A DNA stretch of 64,000 nucleotides, taken from the NCBI RefSeq assembly GCF_002813915.1, contig NZ_CP019335.1:852388-916387 (forward strand). Reading direction: 5' to 3'. Within the stretch, counting starts at the first letter, position 1. The number at the start of each line of letters is the position of its first letter. This DNA comes from Tenacibaculum sp. SZ-18 (lineage in GTDB: Bacteria; Bacteroidota; Bacteroidia; Flavobacteriales; Flavobacteriaceae). Below, piece by piece: positions 40,985 through 63,869 of this stretch. The notes beneath the pieces are model-generated. The model was given only the letters and a program-made list of their open reading frames with translations. It was not told where the DNA came from and did no database searches. Both the position numbers and the translations under genes were made by a program.

Positions 40985-41045
40985 TCCTGTTATCCGGAAT
41001 ATTTAATCGATAAATAGGAATATTTTTACTGATATAACGAGTTGC
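40985..41045 (+). other. attI-like recombination site 1
   Basis: Conserved between both elements up to ATAACGAG, after which the sequences diverge at the first cassette. It contains GGAATATTT twice, 23 bp apart, bracketing ATCGAT. The junction ACGAG|TTGCC places a G before the cassette's TT, as in G|TTRRRY integron crossover sites. Confidence 0.65.
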
Positions 41046-41056
41046 CATTAATTTGA

Positions 41057-41731
41057 ATGAAACTAACTGACCAAATAAAAATCCGAGAGCTTAAATTCAA
41101 ACCAAAGGTTGAAATTTTAGAAAATATTGTTGAATTGAACGACATCGGAATTTCGATTTCAAAACCTAACGGATTTACAATTGATGACGGCGGAATTTTT
41201 GAAAGTTTTAAAACGGATTATATTTTTCCAGAAAACTCGGAATTTTCAAAAAAAGACAGAGAAGACTTTGAAAACCGGATTTACCCACCTGTTTTCACAC
41301 TCAAAAAAAATAATGGAAGACCAATCATTGCGTGCTACTTATTTGACATTAAAGCATTGAAAGGTGGAAGAAACCTGAACATCCGGAGTATAAACAAGTT
41401 TGAGTTAATGTGGACACCATATTTAGCAAAAAAGACAAACGAAGTTCCAATGAATGCCAAAAGAATTTTGAAAAACGACTTGACTGGAGCACTTTCGACC
41501 GAATACGGATTTGAATATAAAATCAAAAATGGAACTGAACCAATTCCTTCGAGATTAAGAATATTGACTTACGAAGTTGGGAATTTTGTATTGACTTTTT
41601 ATTTAGTTTATGACAATGCGAATGACCTCAAACAGACCGAATTGGATTCTTTCATTGACGGAATAAAAACTAATGGCAACAATGGCTATAATTCATTGTG
41701 GCAAAAAGCTAAATCGATGTTTAATCTATAA
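41057..41731 (+). CDS. Cassette 1 protein, unknown
   Basis: 224 residues, mixed alpha/beta, no signal peptide (MKLTDQIKIRELKFKPKVEI). The last 19 residues (NGNNGYNSLWQKAKSMFNL) are encoded by the left half of the attC site, so they are probably acquired and not functional. It starts 15 bp after the recombination point. No family recognised. Confidence 0.6.
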   Translation: MKLTDQIKIRELKFKPKVEILENIVELNDIGISISKPNGFTIDDGGIFESFKTDYIFPENSEFSKKDREDFENRIYPPVFTLKKNNGRPIIACYLFDIKALKGGRNLNIRSINKFELMWTPYLAKKTNEVPMNAKRILKNDLTGALSTEYGFEYKIKNGTEPIPSRLRILTYEVGNFVLTFYLVYDNANDLKQTELDSFIDGIKTNGNNGYNSLWQKAKSMFNL

Positions 41732-41803
41732 ATCTAACGGAGAATTTTAGTGGAATAATCCTACTGATGATTCCACAACGAAATCATAGCCGAAACGTTG
41801 TGG
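41674..41803 (+). repeat. attC-like site 1 (130 bp)
   Basis: TGGCAACAATGGCTAT at the left pairs imperfectly with ATAGCCGAAACGTTG at the right; inside, ATTCATTGTGG pairs with CCACAACGAAAT. Bulged bases interrupt both stems, as in attC folds. Confidence 0.8.
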
Positions 41804-41847
41804 TGCATTTACTCAACAAACTCAATAAGACTGAAATTAAAGAAAAT

Positions 41848-42252
41848 ATGGAATCAAATTTTGTAAAAATTGTTGAGTGTTATATTATCACAGGAGTTGG
41901 AATTTTAATAGAGCTACAACATAGGGAAAATGGAATTCCGCCAAATACTGAAATAATTGACTCGACTTCTAACGAAACTTGGATTATCAAAAAAAGAGTT
42001 CATAACGGAATTTTAATTTTAGACAAATCCGAAAAGTATTTTGAATGTGAAACTGAGTCTATGCACGTAGACAGTGTTTTCAATACTCTAACAGAAAGAA
42101 GAATAGGAGTGGAAACAGAATTGGATAAGCGAAGAAATGGTATTTATATGTATTTAATAAAGCCTAAGAAGAAAAAACAGAAATTAAAACCTGAAATTGG
42201 AACTGAATTAAAAATAAAAACGACATCACAACCAAGAGTAAAGTGTATTTAA
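41848..42252 (+). CDS. Cassette 2 first protein, small beta protein
   Basis: 134 residues from ATG 41848. An in-frame ATG at 41767 lies within the upstream attC and would belong to the neighbouring cassette, so it is rejected. The protein is beta-rich (IVECYIITGVGILIELQHRE, IPPNTEIIDSTSNETWIIKK), like a small barrel, with a very basic C-terminus. Unknown function; it shares a two-gene cassette with the next gene. Confidence 0.55.
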   Translation: MESNFVKIVECYIITGVGILIELQHRENGIPPNTEIIDSTSNETWIIKKRVHNGILILDKSEKYFECETESMHVDSVFNTLTERRIGVETELDKRRNGIYMYLIKPKKKKQKLKPEIGTELKIKTTSQPRVKCI

Positions 42253-42278
42253 ATAAGATGTTAAGAAGATTATAATAG

Positions 42279-42785
42279 ATGAGAACTTATCCAGAAAACA
42301 CCGAAGAACTAGAAAAAAAACACAGTTTTAGTTTTCCTCTAGATAACAAAAAATTAGAGCTTATTCATAATAATGTTATTTTACGTAATGATATTGCATA
42401 CGTATTTTTAAAATCTAGAATCTTAAATTCACTGAAAATGCGAAATCTATTTGAAAACGAATTATTCAGTGAATCTTTTTTGGACAAAAAATTTAACCAA
42501 ACGGATAGACTTAAAATTTATAAAGCAATAAAAAATCAGCTTCCTATGCCAGTTAGTGAGAGGAATAAATTGAGCTTATCTTCTTTCTTTCAGTTAAATG
42601 AAAAACCAAAAGTCGATTCAAGAGTATTAACAATTAAAGACTTAATTTTTGATTTAATTAAGCAGCACAGATTGACTATCAAGGGAGATTTTGAAACATT
42701 TTTTAAACATGAGCTTGATAACTTAAAATACAAAAACGACACCACAACAATATGTAAAAATGCATTGAAACGCATTTTACATTAA
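42279..42785 (+). CDS. Cassette 2 second protein, unknown
   Basis: 168 residues, helical and basic (FLDKKFNQTDRLKIYKAIKN). Its last dozen codons (TICKNALKRILH) lie in the short attC, so the cassette border forms the C-terminus. It may work with the preceding protein, since two genes share one mobile unit. No motif recognised. Confidence 0.55.
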   Translation: MRTYPENTEELEKKHSFSFPLDNKKLELIHNNVILRNDIAYVFLKSRILNSLKMRNLFENELFSESFLDKKFNQTDRLKIYKAIKNQLPMPVSERNKLSLSSFFQLNEKPKVDSRVLTIKDLIFDLIKQHRLTIKGDFETFFKHELDNLKYKNDTTTICKNALKRILH

Positions 42786-42794
42786 CCGTTGTAT
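42742..42794 (+). repeat. attC-like site 2 (short, 53 bp)
   Basis: CCACAACAATATGTAAAAATGC pairs in part with GCATTTTACATTAACCGTTG; one nine-base hairpin arm and flanking cores. The entering bases ACACCACAAC mirror the cassette's own start GTTGTGGTG. Confidence 0.8.
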
Positions 42795-42820
42795 GCAAGC
42801 TTAGGAAATGACAGTGCAAG

Positions 42821-43642
42821 ATGAAAACAAAAGATATAATAGAAGGAAGTCCAGCAATTAAATCGACTACGATTGCTCATTCTGATAATTTCATAATGAC
42901 GACTGGTGGGGTTGTAAATATTTACGAAAATCTGATTGACTCTGATTGTGACTTAATTCTAAATACTAAGAAGATTAAACAAATTCAGTTTGCTGATAAA
43001 TTCAAAGTAACCGAAAAGACTTATGATTTAATCAACCATAGATTATTGACAGATAGCTCCAAACCAACTTTAAGGTTAGTGCTAAACGGATTCGGATTTG
43101 TGGACAATTTGGATTGCTTGGAATTCTTGACTAATACAAAATCACTTACGGTAGATATGTTCAAGAATAAGCAGATTGAAAATATAAATAAATACTTACG
43201 ACTTGAGCATCTTGGAATTGGAGGACAAGGATTGTCAATTAAACCAATTTCGGAGCAAAGCGAATTGATTAGTTTGTTTGTTTTTGACAAATTGAAAGAT
43301 GTTGAAACGATTGGAGAGCTGACTAATTTAAGAAAACTGACTGTTTCAAAACTAACGCTTAAAAACCTTGACTTCTTAACGACTTTAAATCAATTAGCGG
43401 AACTTAATTTTATGTTAGGTAGTGCGACTGATTACGGAAAACTACCTGAAATTGGAGTGATAGAAAAGATGTCATTTACACGAGTGAGACAATTGACAAA
43501 AGAACATTTAATGATTCTTAATGAAATGAAATATCTAAAAGAATTGACCATTGATACTCAAGCAAATATTTTCGATTTAGATTGGTTGTCAGATAAGTCG
43601 ATTAAGACAGAAGTATTTAATTGTAAGAACTTTAATGAATAA
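42821..43642 (+). CDS. Cassette 3 leucine-rich-repeat-like protein
   Basis: 273 residues, no signal peptide. From about residue 85 there are repeated LxxLxLxxxxLxxL units (LECLEFLTNTKSLTV type; ETIGELTNLRKLTVSKLTLK; NLDFLTTLNQLAELNF), i.e. a short internalin-like LRR. LRR proteins bind other proteins; partner unknown. It begins 32 bp after the cassette start. Confidence 0.6.
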   Translation: MKTKDIIEGSPAIKSTTIAHSDNFIMTTGGVVNIYENLIDSDCDLILNTKKIKQIQFADKFKVTEKTYDLINHRLLTDSSKPTLRLVLNGFGFVDNLDCLEFLTNTKSLTVDMFKNKQIENINKYLRLEHLGIGGQGLSIKPISEQSELISLFVFDKLKDVETIGELTNLRKLTVSKLTLKNLDFLTTLNQLAELNFMLGSATDYGKLPEIGVIEKMSFTRVRQLTKEHLMILNEMKYLKELTIDTQANIFDLDWLSDKSIKTEVFNCKNFNE

Positions 43643-43648
43643 AAGTTA

Positions 43649-43780
43649 GCATACAACAATGTATATACAAAATAGGCGAAATAGTAGTAAATTCAGGGGC
43701 TGTAGCCCGCTTCAACATCGTATCGGTTTGATAAGTTTGAAGCACGCAATCGCCTACTTTGCATATACTCACAGTTGGCA
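43649..43780 (+). repeat. attC-like site 3 (130 bp)
   Basis: GCATACAACAATGTATATAC at the left and GCATATACTCACAGTTGGCA at the right frame an inner pair AAATAGGCG / CGCCTACTTT. GCATACAAC mirrors the start of cassette 3 (GTTGTATGC). Confidence 0.8.
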
Positions 43781-43824
43781 GTAATTAAAAAATAGAACAA
43801 CAAAATATAAAATATTTAAGTACA

Positions 43825-45687
43825 GTGAATAGATTTGAAATAATAGAAAAAATCGGTGCTCAACACCATACTGGAAATACAGAATCAGGTGAATTTAGTT
43901 ATCCTACTGCACTTAAATCTATAGGAAAAAACATAAAGGATTATCAGAAAGGAAATAGTGGAAAAAATCACCAATATTTAGATATACGATTTGAAAATGA
44001 ACGCCTAGCAATATTAGTAGAAACAAAAAATAAGTTTAGTAAGTGGGGCAAGGCTAAAATTCAAAAACAACTACAAGATTATGTACGCTATGAAAAAGCT
44101 TATTCTGATAAAAGGATTGTTGCAATTTTAGCAGAAACTGACGGTGATGACGTATGGGTATGGTATGGTCAATCTGTTATAATTGATGATGACCATAAAA
44201 TAGAAGAGGAAACAATACTTAAATCTTTTGAAGAATACGAAGAAATTTGTTTTGGTAAAGTAAATGATAAAATAAAAGTAATTGACTCTATAAAAACACT
44301 GAATGAAAAATTACATTCAGACGGTGTACACGAGAAACTCAGAAGTCAATTTGTTGGTACTTGTTTATTGGCTTTAAAAAATGGATTGGTTTACGAAAAT
44401 GTTAAAGAAACATTAAACCCAAAGACAGGTAAAAACATCAAGCCAGAAGGTGTTGTAATAAATAGTATAAAAGATATTTTAGAGGGTTTACTAACTAAAG
44501 GTGGAAGCATTAACAAGGCAAGTAAATTAGCTATTTTAAACAACAAAGTTCTAGATGACCAAGACGTTCAAAGTTTAACATACAAAGAATTGTCAGATAT
44601 TTTAAAATATATTGACATTAACATTGTACCATATATTAACGATAAGAATACAGCTGGGCAGGATTTACTAAATCTCTTCTTTACAACATTTAATAAGTAT
44701 GTAGGAAAATCGGACAAAAACCAAGCATTTACTCCTGACCATATATGTGGTTTTATGAGTAAAGTAGTTGGTGTAAATAAAAACTCAAGAGTTCTTGACC
44801 CTTGTTGTGGTAGTGGTGCTTTTCTAGTTAGAGCAATGACAGATGCAATGGATGATTGCGAAACTGAGGACGAAAGAGAAAAAGTAAAACAAGAGCAAAT
44901 TTTTGGTATTGAATATGAAGAAGGAGCATTTGGTTTATCCTCAACTAATATGCTTATTCATGGAGACGGTAACTCAAATGTTGTTCAAGACTCGATATTT
45001 AATAGAGGGAAATGGGTTGAGGACAGTAATATTAATGTAGTATTGATGAACCCCCCATACAATGCAACAAAAAAATTCTGTGATCCTAATTACACTAAAA
45101 ATTGGAAGGGTAATAAAAAAGAAGATCCATCTAAAGGATTTCATTTCGTAGAATGGGTTGCTAGTCGCGTTTCTCCTATGTGTAAAATGGCTGTTTTACT
45201 TCCTATGCAAGCTGCGATTGGTACAAGTGCTGATGTAAAGGAGTTCAAGAAAAAAATGCTTGATAAGTACACTTTAGACGCAGTTTTTTCACTACCCGTT
45301 GAAATTTTCTATCCGGGTGCAGCTGCAGTTGCTGTATGTATGATTTTCGATTTGTCACAAAAACACTCTAAAGCAAATAAAGAAACATTTTTTGGATACT
45401 ACAGAGATGATAAGTTTACCAAAAGAAAAGGTTTAGGTCGTATAGAAATGACTGACGAAAATGGTGCCAGTTTATGGGTGAAAACTGAAGAAGAATGGCT
45501 TGATTTATACAAAAACAGGAAAGTAGTACCAGGTTTGTCAGTAATGAAAAAAATTGACCACAAAGATGAGTGGTTAGCAGAAGCTTTTATGGAAACAGAT
45601 TATAGCAATCTAACTCAAATGGACTTTGAACAAACCGTAAGAGATTATTATTCATACATTATTAAAGATGGAGAGGAAAATGCTTAA
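43825..45687 (+). CDS. Fused nuclease-N6-adenine methyltransferase of a restriction-modification system
   Basis: 620 residues, GTG start. Residues 50-70 hold a PD-(D/E)xK nuclease signature (LDIRFENERLAILVETKNK: Asp53, Glu67, Lys69), as in HsdR-N domains. From about 285 an N6-methyltransferase follows with motif I (VLDPCCGSGAFLVRA, about 324-338) and motif IV NPPY (about 408). A C-terminal helical part resembles HsdM. This is a type IIG-like layout: one chain cuts and methylates, while the next gene provides specificity. It overlaps that gene by 8 bp. Confidence 0.85.
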   Translation: MNRFEIIEKIGAQHHTGNTESGEFSYPTALKSIGKNIKDYQKGNSGKNHQYLDIRFENERLAILVETKNKFSKWGKAKIQKQLQDYVRYEKAYSDKRIVAILAETDGDDVWVWYGQSVIIDDDHKIEEETILKSFEEYEEICFGKVNDKIKVIDSIKTLNEKLHSDGVHEKLRSQFVGTCLLALKNGLVYENVKETLNPKTGKNIKPEGVVINSIKDILEGLLTKGGSINKASKLAILNNKVLDDQDVQSLTYKELSDILKYIDINIVPYINDKNTAGQDLLNLFFTTFNKYVGKSDKNQAFTPDHICGFMSKVVGVNKNSRVLDPCCGSGAFLVRAMTDAMDDCETEDEREKVKQEQIFGIEYEEGAFGLSSTNMLIHGDGNSNVVQDSIFNRGKWVEDSNINVVLMNPPYNATKKFCDPNYTKNWKGNKKEDPSKGFHFVEWVASRVSPMCKMAVLLPMQAAIGTSADVKEFKKKMLDKYTLDAVFSLPVEIFYPGAAAVAVCMIFDLSQKHSKANKETFFGYYRDDKFTKRKGLGRIEMTDENGASLWVKTEEEWLDLYKNRKVVPGLSVMKKIDHKDEWLAEAFMETDYSNLTQMDFEQTVRDYYSYIIKDGEENA

Positions 45688-46795
45688 TACTAATGACTGG
45701 GCAGATTTTTGTCTGAATGATTTATTTGAAATTAGCGCAGGCAAATACTACTACGCTGATGAATACGAAAGCGGTGTCACACCTTATATAACAGCTTCAG
45801 CAATTAATAATGGTATTGCAAAAAGAATAAATCTTCAACCTGATTTTAAAGGTAATGCAATCACTACAGGTAAAGTTGGGTGTACAGCATTTTACCAGAA
45901 AGAGGCTTTCTGCGCCACTAGTGACGTAAATATTTTTGTTGCCAAAAAATTTAAAATGACCCCTAATATTGGAGTTTTTATTACTTCAATAATAAACTTC
46001 TCTGAAAATTATAAATGGACTTATGGCAGACAATGTCGTCAACAAAATAGTAAAAGAATAATTATTAAGCTACCGAAAGCTCTTGATGAAAACGGTAATC
46101 CACTTTTAAATATAAATTCAAATTACAATCCCCATGGCTATGTTCCAGATTTTCAATTTATGGAAGACTACATGGCTATTATTTTAAATGATAATGAAAA
46201 CAGCTCCATTGGCAGGACTTTAAAAACTAAAAACATTTCTGGGAATCAAAAGATAGAAACATCTGATTGGCAGGAGTTTTACCTTCACAAATTATTTGAT
46301 ATTACCATGGGTAACGGTATAGATTCAAATAAAACAACAGATTTTGACCCTAAAATCAATTATGTATCGAGAGATAGTAAAGGTAATGGTGTTGTTGGTT
46401 TTATAGACAAAATGGAGGGTGAAGAAACATTTCCAGCTGGTGCAATGACAGTTGCCTTAGGTGGTAGTTTTCTAGGCTCTTGTTTTATTCAAAAGAAACC
46501 ATTTTATACAGCACAAAACGTAGCTGTTATGAAAGAAAAAGTAACACTATCTATTTTTACCAAGCTTTTTATTTCTTCCCTCGTAAGACATGAATGCAAA
46601 GTTAAATACCTTGCTTTTGGCCGTGAATTGAATTCACATATAAGAAAAGATTTTACCATTAAATTACCTGTGATTAAAGATGAAAATGGTTTTGTAAGAG
46701 ATGAAGAAAAGGTATTTTCTGAAGATGGATATTTACCTGATTGGCAATTAATGGAGTCTATTGTAACAGATTTACCTTATGGTGATAGAATATAA
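45680..46795 (+). CDS. HsdS-like specificity subunit with two target-recognition domains
   Basis: 371 residues from ATG 45680. Two half-repeats each start with a DW..F.L..LF.I motif (NDWADFCLNDLFEISAGKYY at residue 4; SDWQEFYLHKLFDITMGNG near 198) and end with LPDWQ/VPDFQ followed by ME. This is the usual two-TRD layout that reads a bipartite DNA target. It partners with the nuclease-methylase, and both sit in one cassette, so the complete system moves as a unit. Confidence 0.85.
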   Translation: MLNTNDWADFCLNDLFEISAGKYYYADEYESGVTPYITASAINNGIAKRINLQPDFKGNAITTGKVGCTAFYQKEAFCATSDVNIFVAKKFKMTPNIGVFITSIINFSENYKWTYGRQCRQQNSKRIIIKLPKALDENGNPLLNINSNYNPHGYVPDFQFMEDYMAIILNDNENSSIGRTLKTKNISGNQKIETSDWQEFYLHKLFDITMGNGIDSNKTTDFDPKINYVSRDSKGNGVVGFIDKMEGEETFPAGAMTVALGGSFLGSCFIQKKPFYTAQNVAVMKEKVTLSIFTKLFISSLVRHECKVKYLAFGRELNSHIRKDFTIKLPVIKDENGFVRDEEKVFSEDGYLPDWQLMESIVTDLPYGDRI

Positions 46796-46799
46796 AACT

Positions 46800-46843
46800 A
46801 CTGCCAACAAAGAACTGAGGTAAAAACCAACAATAATCTATTT
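46800..46843 (+). repeat. Truncated attC-like site at the end of array 1
   Basis: ACTGCCAAC mirrors cassette 4's start (GTTGGCAGT), then AAAGAACTGAGGTAAAAACC runs into unrelated sequence with no right half. The same string ends array 2 at 63788, so it marks a shared array terminus. Confidence 0.65.
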
Positions 46844-46848
46844 AAAAT

Positions 46849-47424
46849 ATGAACATTCGACTATTAATTACAAGTCTTTTAATTTCAACTATTTCATTTT
46901 CTCAAGTTTCGGAAAGTACTGGAATATATTTTGCAAAAGAATTTAGCAAAGAACAAGCTCTTTATAAAGCAAAAGATTACGTTATGACAAATGTAATCGG
47001 AATTGAAAAAAAATTGATAAAATTTGACATTGACCCATTAGCAGCAGCAGCATCTGGAGAATTGACTTCTCTCGTTTACAGTTGTGAAGAAAAGAATTTA
47101 AGCGGACTCGTTTTAGGTTTTTATGGTAGTCGTTGGAATGATACAGGAGTACTCTATCAAGCATATGCGTTTAAAAACCTTCCTCAAAAAAATGCATTGG
47201 AAATTCTATCAAAGTTAGATAAATACATTGACGACGAATCAAAATATCTTTCAGTAAATTCGGATAGCAATAATATGTTTTTCCAATATGATGATATGAC
47301 TTTTTTAATCTATCGTGACGGAAATGTAATAATAAGAGTATTTTGGAATGGCTTTGATTCAGAATGGGAATCCACAGCTTTTAGAAGAACAAAAAGACGA
47401 TTTGAACGTAAAATAAAAGACTAA
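46849..47424 (+). CDS. Secreted protein, unknown
   Basis: 191 residues with a signal peptide (MNIRLLITSLLISTISFSQ) and a mixed alpha/beta mature domain (NMFFQYDDMTFLIYRDGNVI). It is not enclosed by complete attC sites and lies between the array-1 terminus and an attI-like remnant. No family recognised. Confidence 0.6.
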   Translation: MNIRLLITSLLISTISFSQVSESTGIYFAKEFSKEQALYKAKDYVMTNVIGIEKKLIKFDIDPLAAAASGELTSLVYSCEEKNLSGLVLGFYGSRWNDTGVLYQAYAFKNLPQKNALEILSKLDKYIDDESKYLSVNSDSNNMFFQYDDMTFLIYRDGNVIIRVFWNGFDSEWESTAFRRTKRRFERKIKD

Positions 47425-47484
47425 TATCGATCAAGTTTTGACATACCAATGCTTCAATAAAATAATACTGAATTTGATTATTCT

Positions 47485-47545
47485 CGTTATTTGGAATCTT
47501 TAATGAATAAACATGAATATTTATACCGATTTAACTAGTTAGAAG
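47485..47545 (+). other. Degenerate attI-like copy
   Basis: CGTTATTTGGAATCTTTAAT and GAATATTTATACCGAT, then TTAACTAGTTAGAAG, follow the conserved attI-like sequence base by base with about a dozen changes. The box ends ACTAG|TTAG, where the intact sites have ACGAG|T. It suggests an older array start. Confidence 0.5.
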
Positions 47546-47596
47546 TAATTTAACTTGCTATAACAATCTCACAAATTATTTAAACAAGCCTATACT

Positions 47597-48202: not shown

Positions 48203-48253
48203 CCCCCCCTTATTACAAAGGATATAATTAATTATGACTGAATTTCAACCATG

Positions 48254-48571
48254 TTAATAAGATAATTCTATCATCTCCTGTAGTAATTCTTCAGGAGATA
48301 GTTTTTTAGTAAGTCTTTCCAAGTTCTTTTCAGCTTTAGAAACATGACCAAATAAAGAGTGAGATACTCCAATCTTTTTTATAAGATTAATAAAATATTC
48401 TAATGCTATTATGTTCTGATAGCGAACAAACTGATCAGCGTTTAAGTGTGGCACACCTTGACTTTTAACTACGTTGGAGAAATACTTTGAATACATATTG
48501 TAAAGTTCGTTATAATTTGTAGCATTGATTGCTTGATTTTGTAGCATGTTAATAAGTCTTTTCAAATTCAA
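48254..48571 (-). CDS. Conserved right-end helical protein
   Basis: 105 residues, helical (LINMLQNQAINATNYNELYN, ELLQEMIELSY). A near-identical copy starts at 63870 in element 2, so it is backbone, not cargo. It is divergent from the SRAP gene with overlapping upstream regions. Unknown function. Confidence 0.65.
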   Translation of the reverse strand: MNLKRLINMLQNQAINATNYNELYNMYSKYFSNVVKSQGVPHLNADQFVRYQNIIALEYFINLIKKIGVSHSLFGHVSKAEKNLERLTKKLSPEELLQEMIELSY

Positions 48572-48605
48572 ACTAAATAGTAACTTTACAGCTATTATTA
48601 TTACT

Positions 48606-54242: not shown

Positions 54243-54247
54243 AAAAC

Positions 54248-54383: not shown

Positions 54384-54388
54384 GCAAT

Positions 54389-54913: not shown

Positions 54914-54919
54914 AATACT

Positions 54920-56249: not shown

Positions 56250-56277
56250 TTGCCAGTAATTTAAAAACATCGAACAA

Positions 56278-56502: not shown

Positions 56503-56503
56503 G

Positions 56504-57124: not shown

Positions 57125-57129
57125 AAAAC

Positions 57130-57263
57130 TACTGGCAACAATGGCTATAAGTAATTGCTTGGTCTCACCTACTTCTGAAAATCCTCGCGGATATTCAGTT
57201 TGGTGTATACTTGCTAAGTTAAGTGTTAATCCACGCAACTACTCATAGCCGAGACCGTTAGCT
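57130..57263 (+). repeat. attC-like site g
   Basis: CTACTGGCAACAATGGCTAT at left, CATAGCCGAGACCGTTAGC at right. ACTGGCAAC mirrors the cassette start GTTGCCAGT. Confidence 0.8.
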
Positions 57264-57272
57264 GCCATTGCT

Positions 57273-57746
57273 ATGAACAAAATCTATATTCAAAATAACT
57301 TAATAACTTATGAAAGTGAGCTCAATGGAAGACATAGAGCTGGGTATTGGACCACGCATAAAGACCAATCTTGGGTTTTAGATTTAGAAAAAGTAATCTC
57401 AATCGCAGGAATAAACTGTATGGATGGAGATAATGATAGTTATTTTCTTGGATTTATTGATATAGATTTAAAGAAATACTTTCTAAATGTTACATGGGAA
57501 ATTGACGGATTTGAAATACTCAAACCACTGATTGAGGAAAAATTTAAAATAGAATTAACACAATGGCGGATTGACTTTTATGATGATGTAAAAATTCTTT
57601 ATCCTGAATCTTTAAAAAACGAAAGATTATACAAAAACTCATTATGGAAAAGCATAAGAAAGTTAATGCTTTTTGATCACGTAGCAGATGGAAAATTAAA
57701 TGATAATATTTTTAAAAAAACGTCAGCTAACAATGCGCATAATTAA
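57273..57746 (+). CDS. Cassette protein, unknown (immunity-like look)
   Basis: 157 residues, acidic, mixed alpha/beta (MNKIYIQNNLITYESELNGR). The final residues (TSANNAHN) are encoded by the attC. No motif recognised; short acidic cytosolic proteins like this are often immunity proteins, stated as impression only. Confidence 0.55.
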   Translation: MNKIYIQNNLITYESELNGRHRAGYWTTHKDQSWVLDLEKVISIAGINCMDGDNDSYFLGFIDIDLKKYFLNVTWEIDGFEILKPLIEEKFKIELTQWRIDFYDDVKILYPESLKNERLYKNSLWKSIRKLMLFDHVADGKLNDNIFKKTSANNAHN

Positions 57747-57858
57747 TTGCGGCTGAATTTCCTCAGCGGAAATTCAATCTTATTAATTATCTTTCCGCAA
57801 CATCGGAAAATGACTCGCGTCTTTTTCCCGCAAAAAATCATACACAAATACGTTACCA
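57725..57858 (+). repeat. attC-like site h
   Basis: CAGCTAACAATGCGCATAAT at left, CATACACAAATACGTTACC at right; inner arms TTGCGGCTGAATTTCC / GGAAATTCAA. Same family as l and m. Confidence 0.75.
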
Positions 57859-57869
57859 TACATATCACA

Positions 57870-58394
57870 ATGACGCACAAACAACGAAAAATATTCTATC
57901 CGATTATTTTCTTTTTAGGAATAATTTTGATGTATTTTCAAATACAAATTTTTCGGAATACAATAATAAACTGGATAATTCCTGCGTCATTAATAATTGC
58001 AGTTGGAATAATAGCTTATCTGCTAGATTATAAGAATTATAAAGAAACTTATTTTCATTATGGAACAACGAAATTATATGCGACATTAAATTATTTAGTC
58101 GGATACGGATTTATAGCGTGTTCAATCTTTATGTTTACGAATTACTATTTTGCTGACCAAAACGTGAAAACAGAATCTTATAAAATTATTGACCGAACTT
58201 CAATACGTGGAACAAAAAAATCTGGAATTGGAAAGGAACAACCTGTATTTACAATAAAATACAAAGGACAAAATAAAGAGTTAGTTTTCGCTAACGAATA
58301 TTATGCAAAAATGAACTTTTATAAATCTATCAAATTTAAATCAAGAAAAGGTTTTTTTGGATTTGATATTGTAGAAAACAAAATACTGAATTAA
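57870..58394 (+). CDS. Membrane protein with three helices, DUF3592-like
   Basis: 174 residues from ATG 57870, the first start inside the cassette; an earlier in-frame ATG lies in the previous attC. Three hydrophobic helices, then a beta-type C-terminal domain (ESYKIIDRTSIRGTKKSGIG, EQPVFTIKYKG). It resembles DUF3592-type proteins. Function unknown. Confidence 0.6.
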   Translation: MTHKQRKIFYPIIFFLGIILMYFQIQIFRNTIINWIIPASLIIAVGIIAYLLDYKNYKETYFHYGTTKLYATLNYLVGYGFIACSIFMFTNYYFADQNVKTESYKIIDRTSIRGTKKSGIGKEQPVFTIKYKGQNKELVFANEYYAKMNFYKSIKFKSRKGFFGFDIVENKILN

Positions 58395-58413
58395 CAAATA
58401 GCGGAATAAAATA

Positions 58414-58552
58414 CGTATGGTAACACCGTGTATAATTAATTGCTTTGGCAGGTGCTTATTTGGAAAATTCCTTCGGAATTTTCTCGGGTTCGTATTTGTT
58501 TACTAATTTAGTTGCTTAAACACGCAACTAACCATACACAATTCCGTTGTAG
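58414..58552 (+). repeat. attC-like site i
   Basis: GTATGGTAACACCGTGTATA at left, CCATACACAATTCCGTTG at right; inner GGAAAATTCC. GTATGGTAAC mirrors the cassette start GTTACCATAC. Confidence 0.8.
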
Positions 58553-58558
58553 TTCATT

Positions 58559-59098
58559 ATGAAAAAGAAGCTAACCATAGTATTAATTGTCCTTGGAGTT
58601 TTAGGTATTGGAATTTATTTCGTTATGAACTTTTTATGTGAAGTTGGTGTCAAATGCAAAAATTGCACTCAGACTTCAAATACTAAAGAACAGTCTCAAC
58701 AGAATGGATTTTATCTAATGGAATATGAACCATTAAAACAAGAGGTCGATTTAAAAAATCATGATGAAAAAATAACTTTTAAGGACGTGTGGGTTGAGTC
58801 ACAGTGGTTCTATAACTCTGATAATTGTCTAAACACAAAACTTGAAAAGCGAAGCGGATACAATATTGTTTTTGAATTTGACAAATCTAATGAAGGCACA
58901 TTTCTTTTTAGCTTAAGTCCAGTAATAAACGGCAGCATTAACAAGACCAATGGTGGAATAATGGAAACGAAAAAAGAAATTAGATTAAGCGCATTGACTG
59001 ATACTTTATGGTTGCAAATCCATGAAAAAAATCCCAAGGACGGGGTTGGATGGAAAGAAAAATTGGACGGAGAATTAATCGGATTCGTAAAAAAATAA
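58559..59098 (+). CDS. Single-helix envelope protein, unknown
   Basis: 179 residues. An N-terminal helix (KLTIVLIVLGVLGIGIYFVM) is followed by a Cys-containing segment (CEVGVKCKNC) and a beta-rich domain. ATG lies 12 bp into the cassette. No family recognised. Confidence 0.6.
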   Translation: MKKKLTIVLIVLGVLGIGIYFVMNFLCEVGVKCKNCTQTSNTKEQSQQNGFYLMEYEPLKQEVDLKNHDEKITFKDVWVESQWFYNSDNCLNTKLEKRSGYNIVFEFDKSNEGTFLFSLSPVINGSINKTNGGIMETKKEIRLSALTDTLWLQIHEKNPKDGVGWKEKLDGELIGFVKK

Positions 59099-59100
59099 AC

Positions 59101-59296
59101 GAACTACAACACTGTATATAGCAAATAGGGCGTTCGGTAGTTTAAGAAAGTTTGTGCTATGTACAAACACCGCCAAATCGTTGATTTGGCTTTTAAAATG
59201 AATAAATTAAAAACAAAATACAACGCTTTGGCTCAGTGCAAATCCGAAAGTCTATCGCTTTCTACTGCCCTACTTGCCATATACTAACCGTTGTAC
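59101..59296 (+). repeat. attC-like site j (long, about 193 bp)
   Basis: GAACTACAACACTGTATATA at left, CCATATACTAACCGTTGTAC at right; inner arms AAATAGGGC / GCCCTACTT. GAACTACAAC mirrors the cassette start GTTGTAGTTC. Confidence 0.75.
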
Positions 59297-59308
59297 GCAA
59301 GTTGACCA

Positions 59309-59674
59309 ATGAAACGTAAAAAGAAAATATTAATCGGAATTGGAATTCTACTATTCGGAATTTTACTATGGAGTTTTGGATTTGTCAATAGATATAATTT
59401 TTTGACTGCAAAAATTGATGTTATGAATGGGAATCCTAAAATAGTTACTGTTGGACTTCCAATCTTTTCGAACACTGAGTTGAATTTAATTACAGAAAAA
59501 TATGGATTTAAAAATGTGAATTTTGGTTGTATGGTAACCCAATCTGAATTAAACGGAATTGACGCTTACAACGCCGTAATGGAAAGATATTTGGAGAAAA
59601 AAAACGGAATGAATTGGCGAAAGAAGTATGAAAAAAAAATCGATTCGTTTATTAAAATAAAACGTCTGAATTAA
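59309..59674 (+). CDS. Small membrane-anchored protein, unknown
   Basis: 121 residues: basic start and one helix (KKKILIGIGILLFGILLWSF), then a soluble domain with FGCMVTQSELNGIDAYNAVM. Extracytoplasmic by plan. No family recognised. Confidence 0.6.
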   Translation: MKRKKKILIGIGILLFGILLWSFGFVNRYNFLTAKIDVMNGNPKIVTVGLPIFSNTELNLITEKYGFKNVNFGCMVTQSELNGIDAYNAVMERYLEKKNGMNWRKKYEKKIDSFIKIKRLN

Positions 59675-59678
59675 AACC

Positions 59679-59733
59679 AGCGTACAACACCACCTAAGCT
59701 GCATTAAAACGCAGCTTAGCCAAACCGTTGTAC
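59679..59733 (+). repeat. attC-like site k (short)
   Basis: GCGTACAAC core, CTAAGCTGC-attaaaac-GCAGCTTAG perfect 9-bp hairpin, CCGTTGTAC core. The best short attC-like fold in the window. Confidence 0.85.
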
Positions 59734-59745
59734 AAAATTTAAATA

Positions 59746-60297
59746 ATGAAAAAGAATCTAAAACTCGCGACAATAATTTTAATGATTTTTGTTGAATCAA
59801 TCTCGGCGCAACATTCTGAAAACTTTAAAAGAGTAACAGCAAATTTTAAACCGTCAGATACTACTCTCATAAATACAAAACATAAAAATGGAAATAAAAA
59901 GGAATTTGGTTTTTATTACACTTATACTTCAGATAATTATAAATATGAGAGATCTGCAGGGAAGCACACAAGATATTATTATAGTGGAGGAATAATGACT
60001 GAATCTTATTATGACAATTTTGGAATACTTCTTAAATGGAAACACTACAATAGCTTTGGAGTTCTAATGGAAGAGATACAAACATTAAGTATCGACACAA
60101 ATGAGAAAGATTTAGACACCTTTTTAAATAGTGATAAATCTTATGACATCATAATACTTGAAAAAAAGTATGAATTCTCTCCCAAGATTTGTGGTTGGTT
60201 TTTATTTAAAGAAGGTAAGCGAAAAAACGGAAAAAAAATTGGAAAATGGATTAAGTATGACCCGTATGGAGATATAAAAAAAATAAAAGAACATTAA
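59746..60297 (+). CDS. Secreted protein, unknown
   Basis: 183 residues with a signal peptide (MKKNLKLATIILMIFVESIS, cleaved near SAQ). The centre has short Tyr/Gly repeats (YYTYTSDNYKYERS, RYYYSGGIMTESYYDNFG, VLMEE) like MORN/toxin-immunity type beta hairpins. It ends with FKEGKRKNGKKIGKWIKYD, a MORN-like GKKxGxW phrase. Function unknown. Confidence 0.6.
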   Translation: MKKNLKLATIILMIFVESISAQHSENFKRVTANFKPSDTTLINTKHKNGNKKEFGFYYTYTSDNYKYERSAGKHTRYYYSGGIMTESYYDNFGILLKWKHYNSFGVLMEEIQTLSIDTNEKDLDTFLNSDKSYDIIILEKKYEFSPKICGWFLFKEGKRKNGKKIGKWIKYDPYGDIKKIKEH

Positions 60298-60299
60298 AC

Positions 60300-60436
60300 A
60301 TTGTACAACACCGTGTATAATCAATTGCGGCTGAATTTCCTCAACGGAAATTCAATCTTATTAATTATCTTTCCGCAACATCGGAAAACGACTCGCGTCC
60401 TTTTCCCGCAAAAAATCATACACAAATACGTTGGTA
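60300..60436 (+). repeat. attC-like site l
   Basis: TTGTACAACACCGTGTATAA at left, CATACACAAATACGTTGG at right. Its centre is nearly identical to site h. Confidence 0.8.
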
Positions 60437-60452
60437 ATAATTTAAAAAAACT

Positions 60453-61025
60453 ATGAAAAAATTTATTATTTTAACCTCTATTTTATTCATTCAACTATCT
60501 TTTTCTCAAGACAATAGAGGACAAGATCTAGTTGGCAAAGAATTTGGAGATTTCGTTTTTGAGGATATTAACGGAATCAGCTATAACTTTAAAGAAAACA
60601 AAAAGCCCAAAATAGTTGTAGTATCTGCTTCCTGGTGTGGTCCATGTGTATACCTAAAAGAAGCAGTAAATAAGAATGTAGAAAAATATTTTAATCAAAT
60701 TGACTTTATCTATCTCTTTTGGGATTCTAAAAAAGAATTGGTTAAAATAAAGGATCAATATAATTCAAAAGTTATTTTAATTCCATCAAAAAAAAGAAAA
60801 GATGATATTGCATGTATAGAAATAGGAGAATTTGAAAATTGTTTTGGATTCCCCACAGTTTATTCAATAAATACTGAAAATAGAATTCAAAAAATTGAAA
60901 TAGGAGCAGCTGTAGAAATGAATGATGTACTTGTAAAAGGAGAATTGTATAGTATGTCAATAGAAGAAGCTCATAACCAGAACTATAAAAAAATCGAAAG
61001 ATTAATCATACAATTGATAAAATAA
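60453..61025 (+). CDS. Thioredoxin-like (TlpA/AhpC family) secreted protein
   Basis: 190 residues with signal peptide (MKKFIILTSILFIQLSFS). The thioredoxin fold motif is VVVSASWCGPCVYLKE with Cys62 and Cys65, followed by the expected FGFPTVYSIN cis-Pro segment. Periplasmic disulfide or redox function is likely, as in TlpA-type reductases. A single-gene cassette with recognised enzymology. Confidence 0.8.
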   Translation: MKKFIILTSILFIQLSFSQDNRGQDLVGKEFGDFVFEDINGISYNFKENKKPKIVVVSASWCGPCVYLKEAVNKNVEKYFNQIDFIYLFWDSKKELVKIKDQYNSKVILIPSKKRKDDIACIEIGEFENCFGFPTVYSINTENRIQKIEIGAAVEMNDVLVKGELYSMSIEEAHNQNYKKIERLIIQLIK

Positions 61026-61026
61026 C

Positions 61027-61159
61027 TATTACCAACAATGCGTAAAATTAATTGCGGCGAACTTCCTCTTCGGTAATTCGCGCAAATTAATTAACTTAGT
61101 GTTGTAGCAAAAAATCTTGCTGATTTTCCCGCAAAAAATCATACACAAATACGTTATTA
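61027..61159 (+). repeat. attC-like site m
   Basis: TATTACCAACAATGCGTAAA at left, CATACACAAATACGTTATT at right. TATTACCAAC mirrors the cassette start GTTGGTAATA. Confidence 0.8.
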
Positions 61160-61171
61160 TAAAAACCACTA

Positions 61172-61909
61172 ATGAAGAATACAAGAAATTATATATTAAA
61201 CTCTTATGTGCCTAACTATAACAGGGTCATTTCTTCTCTGTCGACAAATGATTTTGGTTTAGATAAATCGAAAAAAGCTTTTCTGGAATTGTGTGAATCC
61301 ATAAAAGCTCTGATTGAATATCTGTGTATCGAGAAGGGATCAGAGATAATTAAAGAGTATGGCTTTGAAACAAACAAAAAAGCAAAAAAACTCCACAATC
61401 AGTTAATTGACAAACTAAAAGAATCTAATTCTAACATTCATGCCCTATGTAATTTAGCAGATGCATATAAGCACAAGGAAATAGACAGAGCTGGTAGAGT
61501 AATCAACTCTACAGATCAACTAGTTGAAATGCCAACCATCGTAAGATTTGAAGATGACTCTGGTTATTATTACAGTTGGATGAAAGTTTTAGAAATTAGA
61601 AAAAATAATGGAGTAAGGCTTCTAGCTATTAATGAAATGCTAACATCCTCTCGCCAAGTATTGAGACAATGTATTAAGTTTGGAGTTATTGATAAACTAC
61701 CTGAATCTGAGCCTTATTGCCCTTTTATTCATCGAGAAGACTGCACTTCGGAATACTTGTATGAGACTTATGAAGGAGAGGATCTTGAAATTGAACACAA
61801 TGAAGGAATTTTTGATAAAAATGAGAATACGCTAAGAAATGTTTTAGCTAGTGATGAATTCAATGCAGAATTGAATATAAAATTGATTGTCAAACCAAGG
61901 ATTATTTAA
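61172..61909 (+). CDS. Cassette protein, unknown (helical, HEPN-like look)
   Basis: 245 residues, mostly helical, cytosolic (MKNTRNYILNSYVPNYNRVI). A helical N-terminal half with NIHALCNLADAYKHKEIDRA recalls HEPN or MazG-like bundles, but I cannot place catalytic residues. Not confidently assignable. Confidence 0.55.
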   Translation: MKNTRNYILNSYVPNYNRVISSLSTNDFGLDKSKKAFLELCESIKALIEYLCIEKGSEIIKEYGFETNKKAKKLHNQLIDKLKESNSNIHALCNLADAYKHKEIDRAGRVINSTDQLVEMPTIVRFEDDSGYYYSWMKVLEIRKNNGVRLLAINEMLTSSRQVLRQCIKFGVIDKLPESEPYCPFIHREDCTSEYLYETYEGEDLEIEHNEGIFDKNENTLRNVLASDEFNAELNIKLIVKPRII

Positions 61910-61913
61910 CAAC

Positions 61914-61965
61914 TTACAACAAAACCTAAACTGCATTAAAACGCAGTTTAGCCAAAACGTTGCCA
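61914..61965 (+). repeat. attC-like site n (short)
   Basis: CTTACAAC core, CTAAACTGC-attaaaac-GCAGTTTAG perfect hairpin, ACGTTG core. Its entering bases do not mirror the start of cassette n, one of two exceptions to the rule. Confidence 0.75.
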
Positions 61966-62559
61966 ACAATTAAAGAAACCCGAACTGAATTGAAAAATCT
62001 GAACTTTGAAACGATACTAAAAGATGCGGAAAAATTCGTTCTGACGGAGAATGATTCATACATCCGAACTTATCCAGAATTTCTAAAATACTTTGCTAAT
62101 ATTGACCAAATTGAGGAACATCATTTGGTAATTTCAAGTCATTTTGTTTATGGTTGGATGCCGACAATCATTCAACTAAATCTGGAACAAAAAAATAAAG
62201 TACTGTTTTTATTAAACGCTGCGAAAAATGGACACATTTTGAACAAATCAGAATTGGAAATTCTAAAAAACTCGATAAATAATTCACTTGTTGGACTTTC
62301 AAAACTGTTGCATTTTATCAACCCAAGAGATTATGCCATTTGGGACAGTCGGATTTTTAGATACTTAACCGAAAAGAAAAGCAGTTACGGAATTGATAAA
62401 CCCGAAAACTATCTCGAATATTTAAACGGACTTAAAATTATTGCGGAACATATAGATTACGGAAAATTACACTACATTATTGCTCGGAATTTTGATTATG
62501 AAATCCATCCGAATAGAGCTATTGAAATCACAATGTTTGAGACTGACAGAAATAGATAA
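61960..62559 (+). CDS. Cassette protein with TTG start on the recombination point
   Basis: 199 residues. No ATG is available near the N-terminus; TTG 61960 is the first base triplet of the cassette itself. The protein has an INPRDYAIWDSRIFRYLTEK motif seen in a family of uncharacterised proteins, after a helical part. Using a start codon supplied by the crossover site means recombination always restores it. Function unknown. Confidence 0.55.
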   Translation: MPTIKETRTELKNLNFETILKDAEKFVLTENDSYIRTYPEFLKYFANIDQIEEHHLVISSHFVYGWMPTIIQLNLEQKNKVLFLLNAAKNGHILNKSELEILKNSINNSLVGLSKLLHFINPRDYAIWDSRIFRYLTEKKSSYGIDKPENYLEYLNGLKIIAEHIDYGKLHYIIARNFDYEIHPNRAIEITMFETDRNR

Positions 62560-62612
62560 CAACGGAATAAAAAGTTTATTGTGAAAACAACAAAAGGAAT
62601 AGAAAAAATAAC

Positions 62613-62750
62613 TGTGGGCAACAATGTATAACCGCAATTACCGCGGATTCGACTATGTTGGAATCCACCCGGTAATTACTAACACTAGTTTTTTAACAAA
62701 TTATGTAACTTTAATCCCGTAACAACAGTTATACAAATACATTTTAACAC
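62613..62750 (+). repeat. attC-like site o (right core degenerate)
   Basis: GGGCAACAATGTATAACCGC at left, AACAGTTATACAAATACATT at right, where the final CGTTG is missing. Same family as c and d. Probably a decayed or rearranged junction. Confidence 0.65.
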
Positions 62751-62760
62751 ATATACAAAA

Positions 62761-63783
62761 ATGACAGAGAAAGAAAATAGCCAAATTGAAGACTATGGGA
62801 ACATTGTACTAAAGTTGTTTCTTAAAAATTCGTGGATTCTAATAATTGTATTAGGAACAAGCTTTATGCCCTATCTGATTACCAGAAACTCAATTTTATT
62901 ATCTCTGGGTACACCTGAAGAAGTAGCAAATATTATAAATGGTTTAACAGCACCCTTTATAGGCTTTACTGTTGCAGTTTTAACTTTCCTTGCTTTTCAT
63001 ATCCAATATAAAGCAAATCAAAAAATTCAAGATCAAGTAAATTTTCAAAGCTTTGAAACTAAATTTTTACACATTTTAGAAAACTTTAGCAGCATTCAAT
63101 CTCAAATTCAAGAACGGGAAGTAGATTTTCACAAAGCAATTCAAATTTTCGAAAATATTTATCACATTACTTGGCAGGCGAATTTGACTATTCATAATAG
63201 GCATGCATTATCTATGGCTGTCTCTATTTTTATGGAAGGCTATACAACAGATATTATGTATGGATTTTCAAAAGAAAAAAAGAAATTATATGAATCAGAT
63301 CCCCTGTCAAGTAGTTTAGAACGTTTAGACCCAAAAGATGACTTACTTCATGATGCATTCCTCTATTTTAAAAGTGGAAGATACCCGTTAGGATATAAGG
63401 AAAAAATATACTTCGATAATATTAAAATTGATCTTTTGGTAAAACTAGGTATGGTGCTTGGCGAAAGTCCAGAAATAAATAAAACAAAGGCTGAAATTAC
63501 AAAAGGATACAGGAAGGATTTTGAAAGATATTTTAAAGCATTTCATGTTATTGTCAATGAACTTGACAGTTTTACTAATAATCCTAATTTGAAAAGTTAT
63601 GACGATAAGTTAACTTCATATTATTCTATTTTAGACAGCTATCTTATAGACGAAGAACTAGACTTATTCCTTCTCTATGTTACCGGTTCTGGTAGTTTAG
63701 AGTCTAATAAAATCGACTTTTTAAAGAAAACCTTCAATAAAAACGGTCATGAATGTAAAGATGGCACAATAATTAAATACTAA
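62761..63783 (+). CDS. Putative abortive-infection membrane protein (putAbiC-like)
   Basis: 340 residues. Two N-terminal membrane helices (about 24-44 and 61-82), then a soluble domain opening with QSFETKFLHILENFSSIQSQ. This plan and phrase resemble the 'putative phage abortive infection protein' family, in which two helices precede an F-E-T/N-x-F motif. I infer an anti-phage role; the match is from memory of the family and moderate. Last cassette of array 2. Confidence 0.5.
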   Translation: MTEKENSQIEDYGNIVLKLFLKNSWILIIVLGTSFMPYLITRNSILLSLGTPEEVANIINGLTAPFIGFTVAVLTFLAFHIQYKANQKIQDQVNFQSFETKFLHILENFSSIQSQIQEREVDFHKAIQIFENIYHITWQANLTIHNRHALSMAVSIFMEGYTTDIMYGFSKEKKKLYESDPLSSSLERLDPKDDLLHDAFLYFKSGRYPLGYKEKIYFDNIKIDLLVKLGMVLGESPEINKTKAEITKGYRKDFERYFKAFHVIVNELDSFTNNPNLKSYDDKLTSYYSILDSYLIDEELDLFLLYVTGSGSLESNKIDFLKKTFNKNGHECKDGTIIKY

Positions 63784-63787
63784 GCCC

Positions 63788-63828
63788 AACAAAGAACTGA
63801 GGTAAAAACCAACAACAATCTATTTAAC
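63788..63828 (+). repeat. Truncated attC-like site at the end of array 2
   Basis: CCCAACAAAGAACTGAGGTA, then the AAACCAACAA / AATCTATTTAA string as at 46804. It is the shared right terminus of both arrays. Confidence 0.65.
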
Positions 63829-63869
63829 TTAAGAAAGTTATAATTAATTACGTCTGAATAGCAACTATG

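Follow-up and report, generated by a model that had tools for sequence, protein, structure and literature searches.

Integron-like cassette arrays led by attI on mobile-element sequence of Tenacibaculum and a candidate Xer-type recombinase elsewhere in the genome

The 64,000-nucleotide stretch of the Tenacibaculum sp. SZ-18 genome analyzed here (hereafter, the window) very probably contains two integron-like arrays of gene cassettes, each led by a copy of one attI docking site and without a local integron-type integrase. We predict that the cassettes are inserted and excised in trans by a Xer-type tyrosine recombinase encoded 1.7 Mb from the window (hereafter, IntX).

Array 1 holds 4 cassettes and array 2 holds 16, about 20 in total, in agreement with the preliminary description of this DNA, which had reported 20 cassettes divided by imperfect palindromes. 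We delimited 18 folded attC-like sites between them, besides two truncated cassette ends near 46805 and 63786. The span from R'' to R' is 44-45 bp in four of the sites, 122-127 bp in 13 and 185 bp in one. Crossovers, placed earlier after a G and before TT, are indeed G|TT, save two altered borders (G|TC at 51882 and ATT at 62741). The + strand carries every ORF assigned to a cassette, as had been claimed for all intact genes, and no ORF of at least 60 aa was found in cassettes 55048-55647 and 55648-56249.

In array 1, cassette 1 (41042..41797, +; 224-aa ORF) ends in an attC at 41678-41799, cassette 2 (41798..42788, +; two ORFs) in a short attC at 42746-42790, and cassette 3 (42789..43774, +; 273-aa ORF) in an attC at 43655-43776, with matches to their own starts of 10, 9, and 9 nt, respectively. 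A restriction-modification cassette (43775..46850, +) follows and encodes a 620-aa protein of the N6-MTase type and a 375-aa specificity protein; its R'' near 46805 is complementary to its own start over 10 nt (by eye) and is followed by a truncated end, the 'term' motif at 46796-46850. Array 2 has 15 complete cassettes (51883..62741, +), with attC sites (from AAC to GTT) at 53045-53167, 53781-53824, 54255-54379, 54926-55049, 55527-55649, 56127-56251, 57137-57259, 57729-57854, 58422-58548, 59108-59292, 59686-59729, 60307-60432, 61034-61155, 61918-61961, and 62620-62743. Its last cassette (62742..63830, +) ends in a 'term' motif, next to which lies a SRAP end region. Cassettes are common to different loci, and 4 of the 20 window cassettes are also present in full elsewhere. 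The OmpA-like cassette (54378..55047, +) recurs in full in a Tenacibaculum MAG (95%) with both borders no more than 3 nt off, and its second copy in the same genome (99%) has its right border no more than 2 nt off and the preceding attC end in common too.

For 15 of the 18 window sites, the cassette end is complementary to the start of its own cassette over 8-10 nt (the other three fail the 8-nt criterion); complementarity to the start of the next cassette, over 8 nt, was seen in a single one, which is a tandem near-duplicate. A match to the cassette's own start and not to that of its neighbor is as expected of units that were once circular. Across 44 other loci with IntX, own-start matches of at least 9 nt were detected in 32, vs 81 of 1892 swapped controls, with no clear match in the remaining 12. 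A covariance model (R1), built from 8 of the 18 window sites that are all of the 122-127 bp kind, and under-detecting short sites, reported 144 sites in the 4.02-Mb chromosome, with only 150 candidates scored and nearly all sites in a few array clusters; two phages that carry canonical integrons gave it no match at E values of 1 or below. A simple count of R/L-box stems gave 16 sites vs 4-11 in five shuffles and did not tell the arrays from shuffled sequence. Given this near-background result, these attC-like sites are not recognized by simple stem counting, but they are by own-start complementarity and by R1.

The conserved non-cassette site that had been described ahead of the arrays is attI, which includes a conserved TTATCC segment. 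Copy 1 (40961..41044, +; crossover after G41041) is 85% identical over 68 bp to the attI at the intX 3' end, and copy 2 (51802..51885, +) has its crossover after G51882, where the next letters are TC, not TT. A degenerate copy (47481..47549, +; 80% over 55 bp) lies as a direct repeat downstream of the first 'term' motif. Each of the 13 attI copies examined in the genome has its own distinct sequence past the crossover, and six copies away from IntX are preceded by mobile-element (ArdC) sequence. The promoter, also claimed earlier, is present as TTTG-N19-TACTTTTG in the leaders of array 1 (40910..40940, +) and array 2 (51751..51781, +), and is assigned to the Bacteroidota type by what we take to be the promoter consensus of that phylum. 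A scan of the array 1 leader for sigma-70-type promoters found none. Promoters of the form TTTG-N17-22-TAnnTTTG occur in 7 of 9 leaders examined. In 35 of 68 attIs the -7 box TAnnTTTG precedes the crossover by exactly 22 nt; a random stretch of 45 nt would contain any such box with a probability of 3%.

The absence of a visible integrase, noted in the preliminary description, holds for the window, in which the IntI model TIGR02249 had no match at E up to 10; it does not extend to the host genome, where the best match of this model is IntX (378 aa, reading frame intact). The search for a host recombinase with the integron-specific helix, proposed at the same time, yields a candidate, from which the integron-specific domain is nonetheless absent. 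This absence, the location of IntX outside the window, and the presence of other tyrosine recombinases in the genome (19 PF00589 matches in all) speak against IntX as the enzyme. The intX 3' end overlaps an attI of the same type as the window copies, with a large array next to it, and in this genome and most IntX loci intX has the orientation of the array and reaches into attI with its 3' end. IntX is below the curated IntI cut-off (206.7 vs 265 bits) and just above that of NF040815 (224.8 vs 220 bits), a model named 'site-specific tyrosine recombinase/integron integrase'. The flanking motifs, located (in a looser form) in 79 of 80 IntX loci, are 58 residues apart in 78 of the 79 relatives read and 59 in the other, vs 99-101 residues in 25 of 27 IntI loci; the short spacing indicates that the integron-specific domain is missing from IntX, which is therefore not an IntI. 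In a quick tree with long branches, 18 IntI rows formed one clade apart from IntX. An additional N-terminal domain of ~75 residues is seen in a structure model whose overall confidence is low (pTM 0.49), and the best solved relatives are XerA-type enzymes, the fold matches adding little beyond the sequence result. Relatives in viral contigs were only distant ones (24-39% identity).

IntX-attI-array loci recur in Flavobacteriaceae. Of 78 testable loci, 68 have the attI motif behind the IntX stop codon, against a background of 0.011 per 120 nt, and 10 lack it near the stop. R1 matched attC sites in 49 of 52 IntX loci of other genomes and none in the other 3; of these 236 sites, 235 are on the strand of the recombinase gene, and 234 are both on that strand and downstream of IntX. 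Of 80 loci, 28 reach a contig end no more than 1 kb past the IntX match and 2 do so on its upstream side; such downstream breaks are what repeat arrays would cause. It is unlikely that a canonical IntI, acquired or transient, built the arrays and that IntX is a Xer-type enzyme adjoining one of them by chance. Of 296 genomes sampled from the phylum, 85 have canonical IntI above the cut-off (54 have the attC-like site type). Polaribacter phage P12002L contains sites of the type described here, and one site of this phage recombined with IntI1 x attI1 (PMC9892861). However, no IntI above the cut-off was found in this genome, and of the 86 phylum genomes with an IntI match none is from the same family and one is from the same class. 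No R1 sites were found near canonical IntI genes from the phylum (six stretches of 8-20 kb), and the attI recurring behind intX (68 of 78 loci) likewise counts against this reading.

The mobile element that carries array 1 is integrated at a tRNA gene, as had been proposed. It lies at the 3' end of tRNA-Arg (15121-15195), in a group of tRNA-Ser, tRNA-Pro, and tRNA-Arg genes (14923..15195, +), and is bounded by a left repeat of the tRNA-Arg 3' end and following bases (15148..15239, +) and a right repeat of the tRNA-Arg 3' end (49461..49552, +) that are 96% identical. Only one of the two arrays is cargo of this element as originally stated: array 1 is inside, whereas array 2 belongs to a truncated unit of this kind located past the right repeat. 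The element encodes a tyrosine integrase (479 aa; 15410..16849, +; PF13102, phrog_1), which is not the proposed cassette recombinase, a GH108 endolysin (34768..35343, +; PF05838, phrog_315), and, as the final backbone gene before array 1, an ArdC-like anti-restriction protein/ATPase (38322..40832, +; PF18818, PF08401, phrog_7245). Its right backbone end (48213..49325, +), with a small antisense ORF and a SRAP gene (48546-49325; PF02586), recurs behind other arrays, and a second, 5'-truncated ArdC copy (49781..51673, +) is 98% identical. In a comparison of 20 element proteins with PHROGs, the integrase, the endolysin, the anti-restriction protein, and one weak tail match lend weak support to the phage-like nature assumed earlier; no capsid or terminase match was found. 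In viral contigs, ArdC had one partial match, with no attI in the 700 bases after its stop codon, and the transglutaminase-like protein had no match; a protein search with a 332-aa element protein returned 7 proteins including itself, none informatively named. Relatives of the ArdC gene were detected in 7 of 58 genomes of the genus including its own, the other six at 43-50%.

The notion of a variable cargo bay is borne out by a second element copy, whose sequence is 97% identical up to a point shortly beyond the attI crossover and once more behind the cassettes, which differ between the two copies. R1 had no match in these cassettes even at E up to 10, and two attC sites of the short kind were found by eye. 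Several element copies and near-identical repeated cassettes would also be seen if arrays once made by site-specific recombination now varied only via homologous recombination between repeats and element movement, and the decayed ArdC and SRAP copies, truncated 'term' ends, and degenerate attI at 47481 fit this as well. We consider it very unlikely, since the intX frame is intact and its relatives are widespread, the 13 attI copies lead into different sequences, and one cassette is 95% identical in an IntX-led array of another genome. Cassette recombination by IntX may be active at present.

The hairpins differ between their two strands. Among 2847 cells of 150 sites from this genome, A.C or C.A pairs numbered 306 vs 2 G.T pairs, and among 2849 cells of 150 sites from 43 other loci, A.C numbered 358 vs 4 G.T. 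With exceptions mostly A.C and hardly ever G.T, pairing is kept on the bottom strand only. Folding of both strands, a check suggested in the preliminary description, favored the bottom strand in 18 of 18 re-joined attCs, with a difference below 2 kcal/mol for 3 of the 18 window sites; in a related site of phage P12002L the top strand folded slightly better (-10.1 vs -9.7). It is barely tenable that the palindromes are non-recombinational dispersed repeats (REP or MITE-like, or terminators) between ordinary genes, as their strength, recurring families, AT-rich intergenic position, and near-background simple stem counts might suggest, because repeat insertion would not make the end of a unit complementary to its own start, the pairing exceptions are strand-specific, and the copy of a cassette in another genome deviates from the cassette borders by 3 nt at most on both sides. 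Site anatomy, the own-start test, and the attI copies instead support an attC/attI-type cassette system, as first claimed.

In common with sedentary chromosomal integrons (e.g., Vibrio type), this system has a tyrosine recombinase gene next to attI, attC hairpins with a G|TT crossover and a favored bottom strand, and long arrays in which most genes are unnamed and some cassettes have no ORF. It differs from them in that IntX is without the integron-specific domain of their recombinase, intX and the array point the same way here and in most IntX loci with the intX 3' end inside attI, and pairing of the cassette-end arm extends over ~14 nt, where position 11 is a conserved A.C. A bulged base in the L arm was found in 7 of 9 canonical sites (seven of the nine from one phage) vs 4 of 18 window sites (3 of the 4 on the opposite side), and 17 of the 18 have an L-arm A.C mismatch in place of the canonical bulged bases. 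Of the features that define an IntI-type integron, we find a G|TT border and attC sites with R and L boxes at cassette ends, and attI beside the recombinase gene in the 68 of 78 loci, with copies that diverge at the crossover, where they would receive cassettes; the integrase is without the additional IntI domain, and the extrahelical bases that set strand choice in canonical attC are absent from most window sites. The window also has the at least two attC sites without a neighboring integron integrase that define a CALIN. Like the CALINs and phage integrons of PMC9892861, these are cassette arrays in mobile elements without a local integrase, and Polaribacter phage P12002L carries attC-like sites of the present type; unlike them, many attI-led arrays are here on element sequence of one genome, and the one intact recombinase gene, which belongs to another family, is elsewhere. 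IntX shares with XerA/Xer recombinases (NF040815) the passing of that model and its XerA-type solved relatives, and differs by the extra ~75-residue N-terminal domain and its association with cassette arrays. The pdif modules of Acinetobacter are likewise mobile gene modules linked to Xer-type recombinases, but their sites are short, double-stranded, and dif-like, whereas the present sites are 45-185 bp hairpins with attI.

Mechanistically, we propose that the bottom strand, either of a circular cassette or of an array, would fold into an attC hairpin, in which the conserved top-strand A.C mismatches would become G.T pairs. IntX would recombine this single-stranded, folded attC with double-stranded attI (TATAACNNG|TT), crossing over at G|TT. 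The newest cassettes would be transcribed and expressed from a promoter located either in attI or in the element leader. It is fairly likely that this represents a Bacteroidota integron lineage of its own, with a XerA-like recombinase without the integron domain and strand choice set by G.T pairs, not bulges, in which attI was copied onto mobile elements to give integrase-free carriers served in trans by the host.

By its title, a study by Messier and Roy (2001) reportedly found the additional IntI domain necessary for cassette recombination. The domain is likewise held necessary in PMC8138268. A literature search, with preprints outside its scope, found no description of a cassette system whose recombinase is without the integron domain, or of the present site type in Flavobacteriaceae. 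The earlier remark that such arrays are little described is thus apt for this site type in the literature searched, but not for canonical integrons and attC clusters in phages, which have been published (PMC9892861). The system would be an integron whose recombinase is of another kind than IntI. If true, recombination of folded strands would have fewer requirements than assumed or would have arisen twice, and engineering would gain another pair of enzyme and site. A large, mostly unread cassette pool would open, the present site type being frequent vs the one complete integron named in Bacteroidetes proper by the IntegronFinder 2.0 survey (PMC9024848), and mobile elements would have a route to hold cassettes without an enzyme of their own.

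The bases before the inner AAC (R'') of every attC-like site in the window (G000:C1:852388-916387, on a complete chromosome of 4.02 Mb) were checked for complementarity to the start of the same cassette and to that of the next. The cassette's own start was complementary over 8-10 nt in 15 of 18 sites, whereas the next start gave an 8-nt match once, at a tandem near-duplicate, and 0-7 nt otherwise. At 53045, one of the three misses, the own start begins with GTC and shows a single mismatch by eye; the other two gave 3 nt (61918) and 6 nt (62620). The restriction-modification unit, with R'' read by eye near 46805, also passes. Such own-start matches cannot arise from a linear repeat family, but they are produced by circular units with both halves of one site. 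The same comparison was made in other genomes for the first cassette of 44 loci of the candidate recombinase IntX, each with the docking site attI and 800 nt or more of sequence downstream; the cassette start was matched over 9 nt or more in 32 of them, versus 81 of 1892 swapped controls.

An 84-bp sequence, attI, ends at the crossover of both window arrays. Leader and attI together have 13 matches in the genome, 12 of which reach the attI part, and the 13 attI copies compared (these 12 and a degenerate window copy) each continue differently after the crossover; several are degenerate. The 3' end of intX (L028:780-1916), which encodes 378 aa, runs into one of the copies, and behind this copy come a cassette with its attC and then a long array. 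Among 80 IntX loci, 78 were long enough to be tested, and in 68 of them an attI motif lies within 110 nt past the IntX stop codon or just over it. The motif has eight spellings, and 66 of the 68 fit TATAACNNGTT. The own-start matches, the single crossover and the attI copies with differing continuations support the attC/attI-type system proposed in the preliminary description.

That description saw no integrase. No IntI above the model cut-off was found, but a candidate recombinase is encoded elsewhere in the genome: the proposed host search with an integron integrase model gave IntX, a Xer-type tyrosine recombinase, as its top score, yet under the cut-off and without the integron-specific region. 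A Tenacibaculum MAG and a metagenome cluster each contain a protein with 90-91% identity to IntX. Relatives were sought by scanning named genomes, and the best 80 of 379 loci were kept; the contig ends less than 1 kb downstream of the match in 28 of the 80 and upstream in 2. A covariance model of the present site type (R1), built from 8 window sites, was run at E up to 0.01 on 52 of the 80 loci, picked by length of downstream sequence. It found 236 sites, with at least one in 49 of the 52 loci; 235 were on the IntX strand, 234 of these also downstream. The association extends to two loci outside the family: in L224, R1 sites follow the gene of an IntX relative (37% identity), and L223 (G132:C4) has a shorter relative without the N-terminal domain and R1 sites on the opposite strand, which is the divergent layout of classical integrons. 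Judged from these sequence associations, IntX is likely the enzyme acting on the cassettes. At its N-terminus IntX has an additional domain (residues 1-75; strands and two helices in the structure model), which the 14 aligned relatives share. This domain might recognise the conserved TTATCC stretch of attI.

When the re-joined sites were folded on both strands, as had been suggested, the bottom strand was the more stable one in 18 of 18, by a mean of 3.9 kcal/mol (less than 2 in three). The arms are backed by covariation, with 83.6% of cells paired versus 25-38% when slid. In the own genome (best 150 of 246 R1-aligned rows, among them the training sites), 2450 of 2847 pair cells were Watson-Crick, 306 were A.C or C.A and 2 were G.T; sites of other genomes (best 150 of 180, from 43 loci) gave 2460 of 2849, 358 and 4, respectively. 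Two fixed positions, both part of R1 training, account for most A.C cells, but 64 of the 306 and 75 of the 358 lie off them, still against 2 and 4 G.T. A third fixed A.C, at position 11 of the cassette-end arm and outside the model, was found in 27 of 32 loci. An A.C on the top strand is a G.T on the bottom strand, and changes are therefore tolerated where the bottom strand still pairs. Canonical attC sites of two phages instead have a bulged base in 7 of 9.

Polaribacter phage P12002L carries sites of the present type. PMC9892861 reports that one of two tested P12002L sites recombined with IntI1 x attI1 via the bottom strand, with zero top-strand recombinants, and that the second failed. We infer that the site that recombined is of the present type. 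At P12002L 30002-30062, folding slightly favours the top strand.

The element in the window spans from tRNA-Arg (15148-15239) to a 96% repeat of it at 49461-49552. To the left of its array lie an ArdC-like gene, then a leader containing a Bacteroidota-type promoter, and attI; a short motif ('term') and a SRAP gene form the right boundary. This layout, whole or as a remnant, occurs near 85-100, 197, 229-241, 893-901, 904-917, 2232-2238, 2713-2799 and 3467-3524 kb of the chromosome, and ArdC sequence directly precedes six attI copies. A second copy of the element matches window 29250-41057 at 96.9% identity; this match ends 16 bases past the crossover and identity returns at 'term' and the SRAP end, with different genes, on the plus strand, between. 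In its first cassette the own-start match is 10 nt long and the attC is short; the second also has a short attC, read by eye, and four long ORFs follow. R1 gave no match in this stretch. Over 443 kb of the chromosome R1 gave 246 rows, or ~218 distinct sites once opposite-strand echoes and one split site are subtracted. The second copy supports the variable cargo bay of the preliminary description, and the tRNA-Arg repeats support its tRNA integration. Clear PHROGs matches among 20 element proteins were an integrase, an endolysin and an anti-restriction protein; a phage origin is no more than possible.

The 'term' motif (CCAACAAAGAACTGAGGTAAAAACCAAC; 35-55 bp) closes arrays at window 46796-46850 and 63777-63830 and was seen at eight places in the stretches examined. 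It resembles an attC with the second half replaced and is possibly the fixed right end of the cargo bay. The last unit before it is restriction-modification-like in two element copies, named by Pfam at window 43775-46850 and type I-like by eye only at G000:C1 89.2-99.2 kb (ORFs of 782, 441, 1055 and 1017 aa). Tandem 11-bp repeats (AAAAATCCGTG) lie at window 49674-49760, just inside the second element unit. Just past the window, a 402-aa tyrosine integrase (G000:C1:917404-917931, minus strand) sits between the last SRAP gene and apparent host genes. An adjacent tyrosine recombinase pair (313-324 and 296 aa), present in four copies at G000:C1 790.4-798.6 and 3573.9-3582.7 kb, is possibly a transposon.

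Compared with the other arrays examined, 4 of the 20 window cassettes recur at full length. For cassette 54378-55047, a Tenacibaculum MAG has a 95% identical copy in its IntX-led array (L054:12102-12769), each end lying no more than 3 nt from the cassette border; another copy in the own chromosome is 99% identical, with the right border within 2 nt and the preceding attC end also in common. Cassette 57853-58546 is likewise 99% identical elsewhere in the chromosome (right border within 2 nt). Two ORF-less cassettes of ~600 bp each (55048-56249) have at least six full-length matches each in other arrays, their copies across arrays of the own genome being 93-96% identical; their content could be a promoter, an RNA or only a site. 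Cassette 57258-57852 shows 92% identity to two others across 83% of its length and then a different attC, as if swapping of attC ends were possible. The remaining 15 had no full-length match in these arrays. Pfam, run on 20 of the cassette-region proteins, named the restriction-modification pair; a thioredoxin-like match was close to the cut-off, and an OmpA-like match fell slightly short of it. PADLOC, on 10 proteins, gave the restriction pair and one marginal match.

Of 296 genomes sampled across the phylum, 54 have R1 sites at E up to 1e-5, including 18 from the bacterium's family; no more than 11 candidates were scored per genome, and a single genome served to train the model. A search of 59 genomes gave IntX relatives (E up to 1e-60) in 28, the own genome among them. 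Canonical IntI was above cut-off in 85 of the 296, nearly all outside the bacterium's class; the 86 genomes with any match include none from its family and one from its class. R1 sites were absent from six stretches around canonical IntI genes. IntI and R1 sites occur together in some sampled genomes, e.g., G105, G116 and G132.

Aligned to the Vibrio integrase structure 2a3v, IntX lacks the integron-specific region, with a gap between its residues 260 and 276 and integrase residues 180 and 239. The flanking motifs, located in 79 of the 80 IntX loci, are spaced by 58 (78 rows) or 59 (one row), versus 99-101 in 25 of 27 IntI loci. A quick tree built from 65 rows places all 18 IntI rows in one clade apart from IntX. 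Its branches are long, and IntX may either have lost the domain or never have had it. With attI, attC, one crossover point, cassette units and a strand bias, the cassette system behaves like an integron; by its likely enzyme it stands outside the IntI family, and strand choice is encoded differently in its sites.
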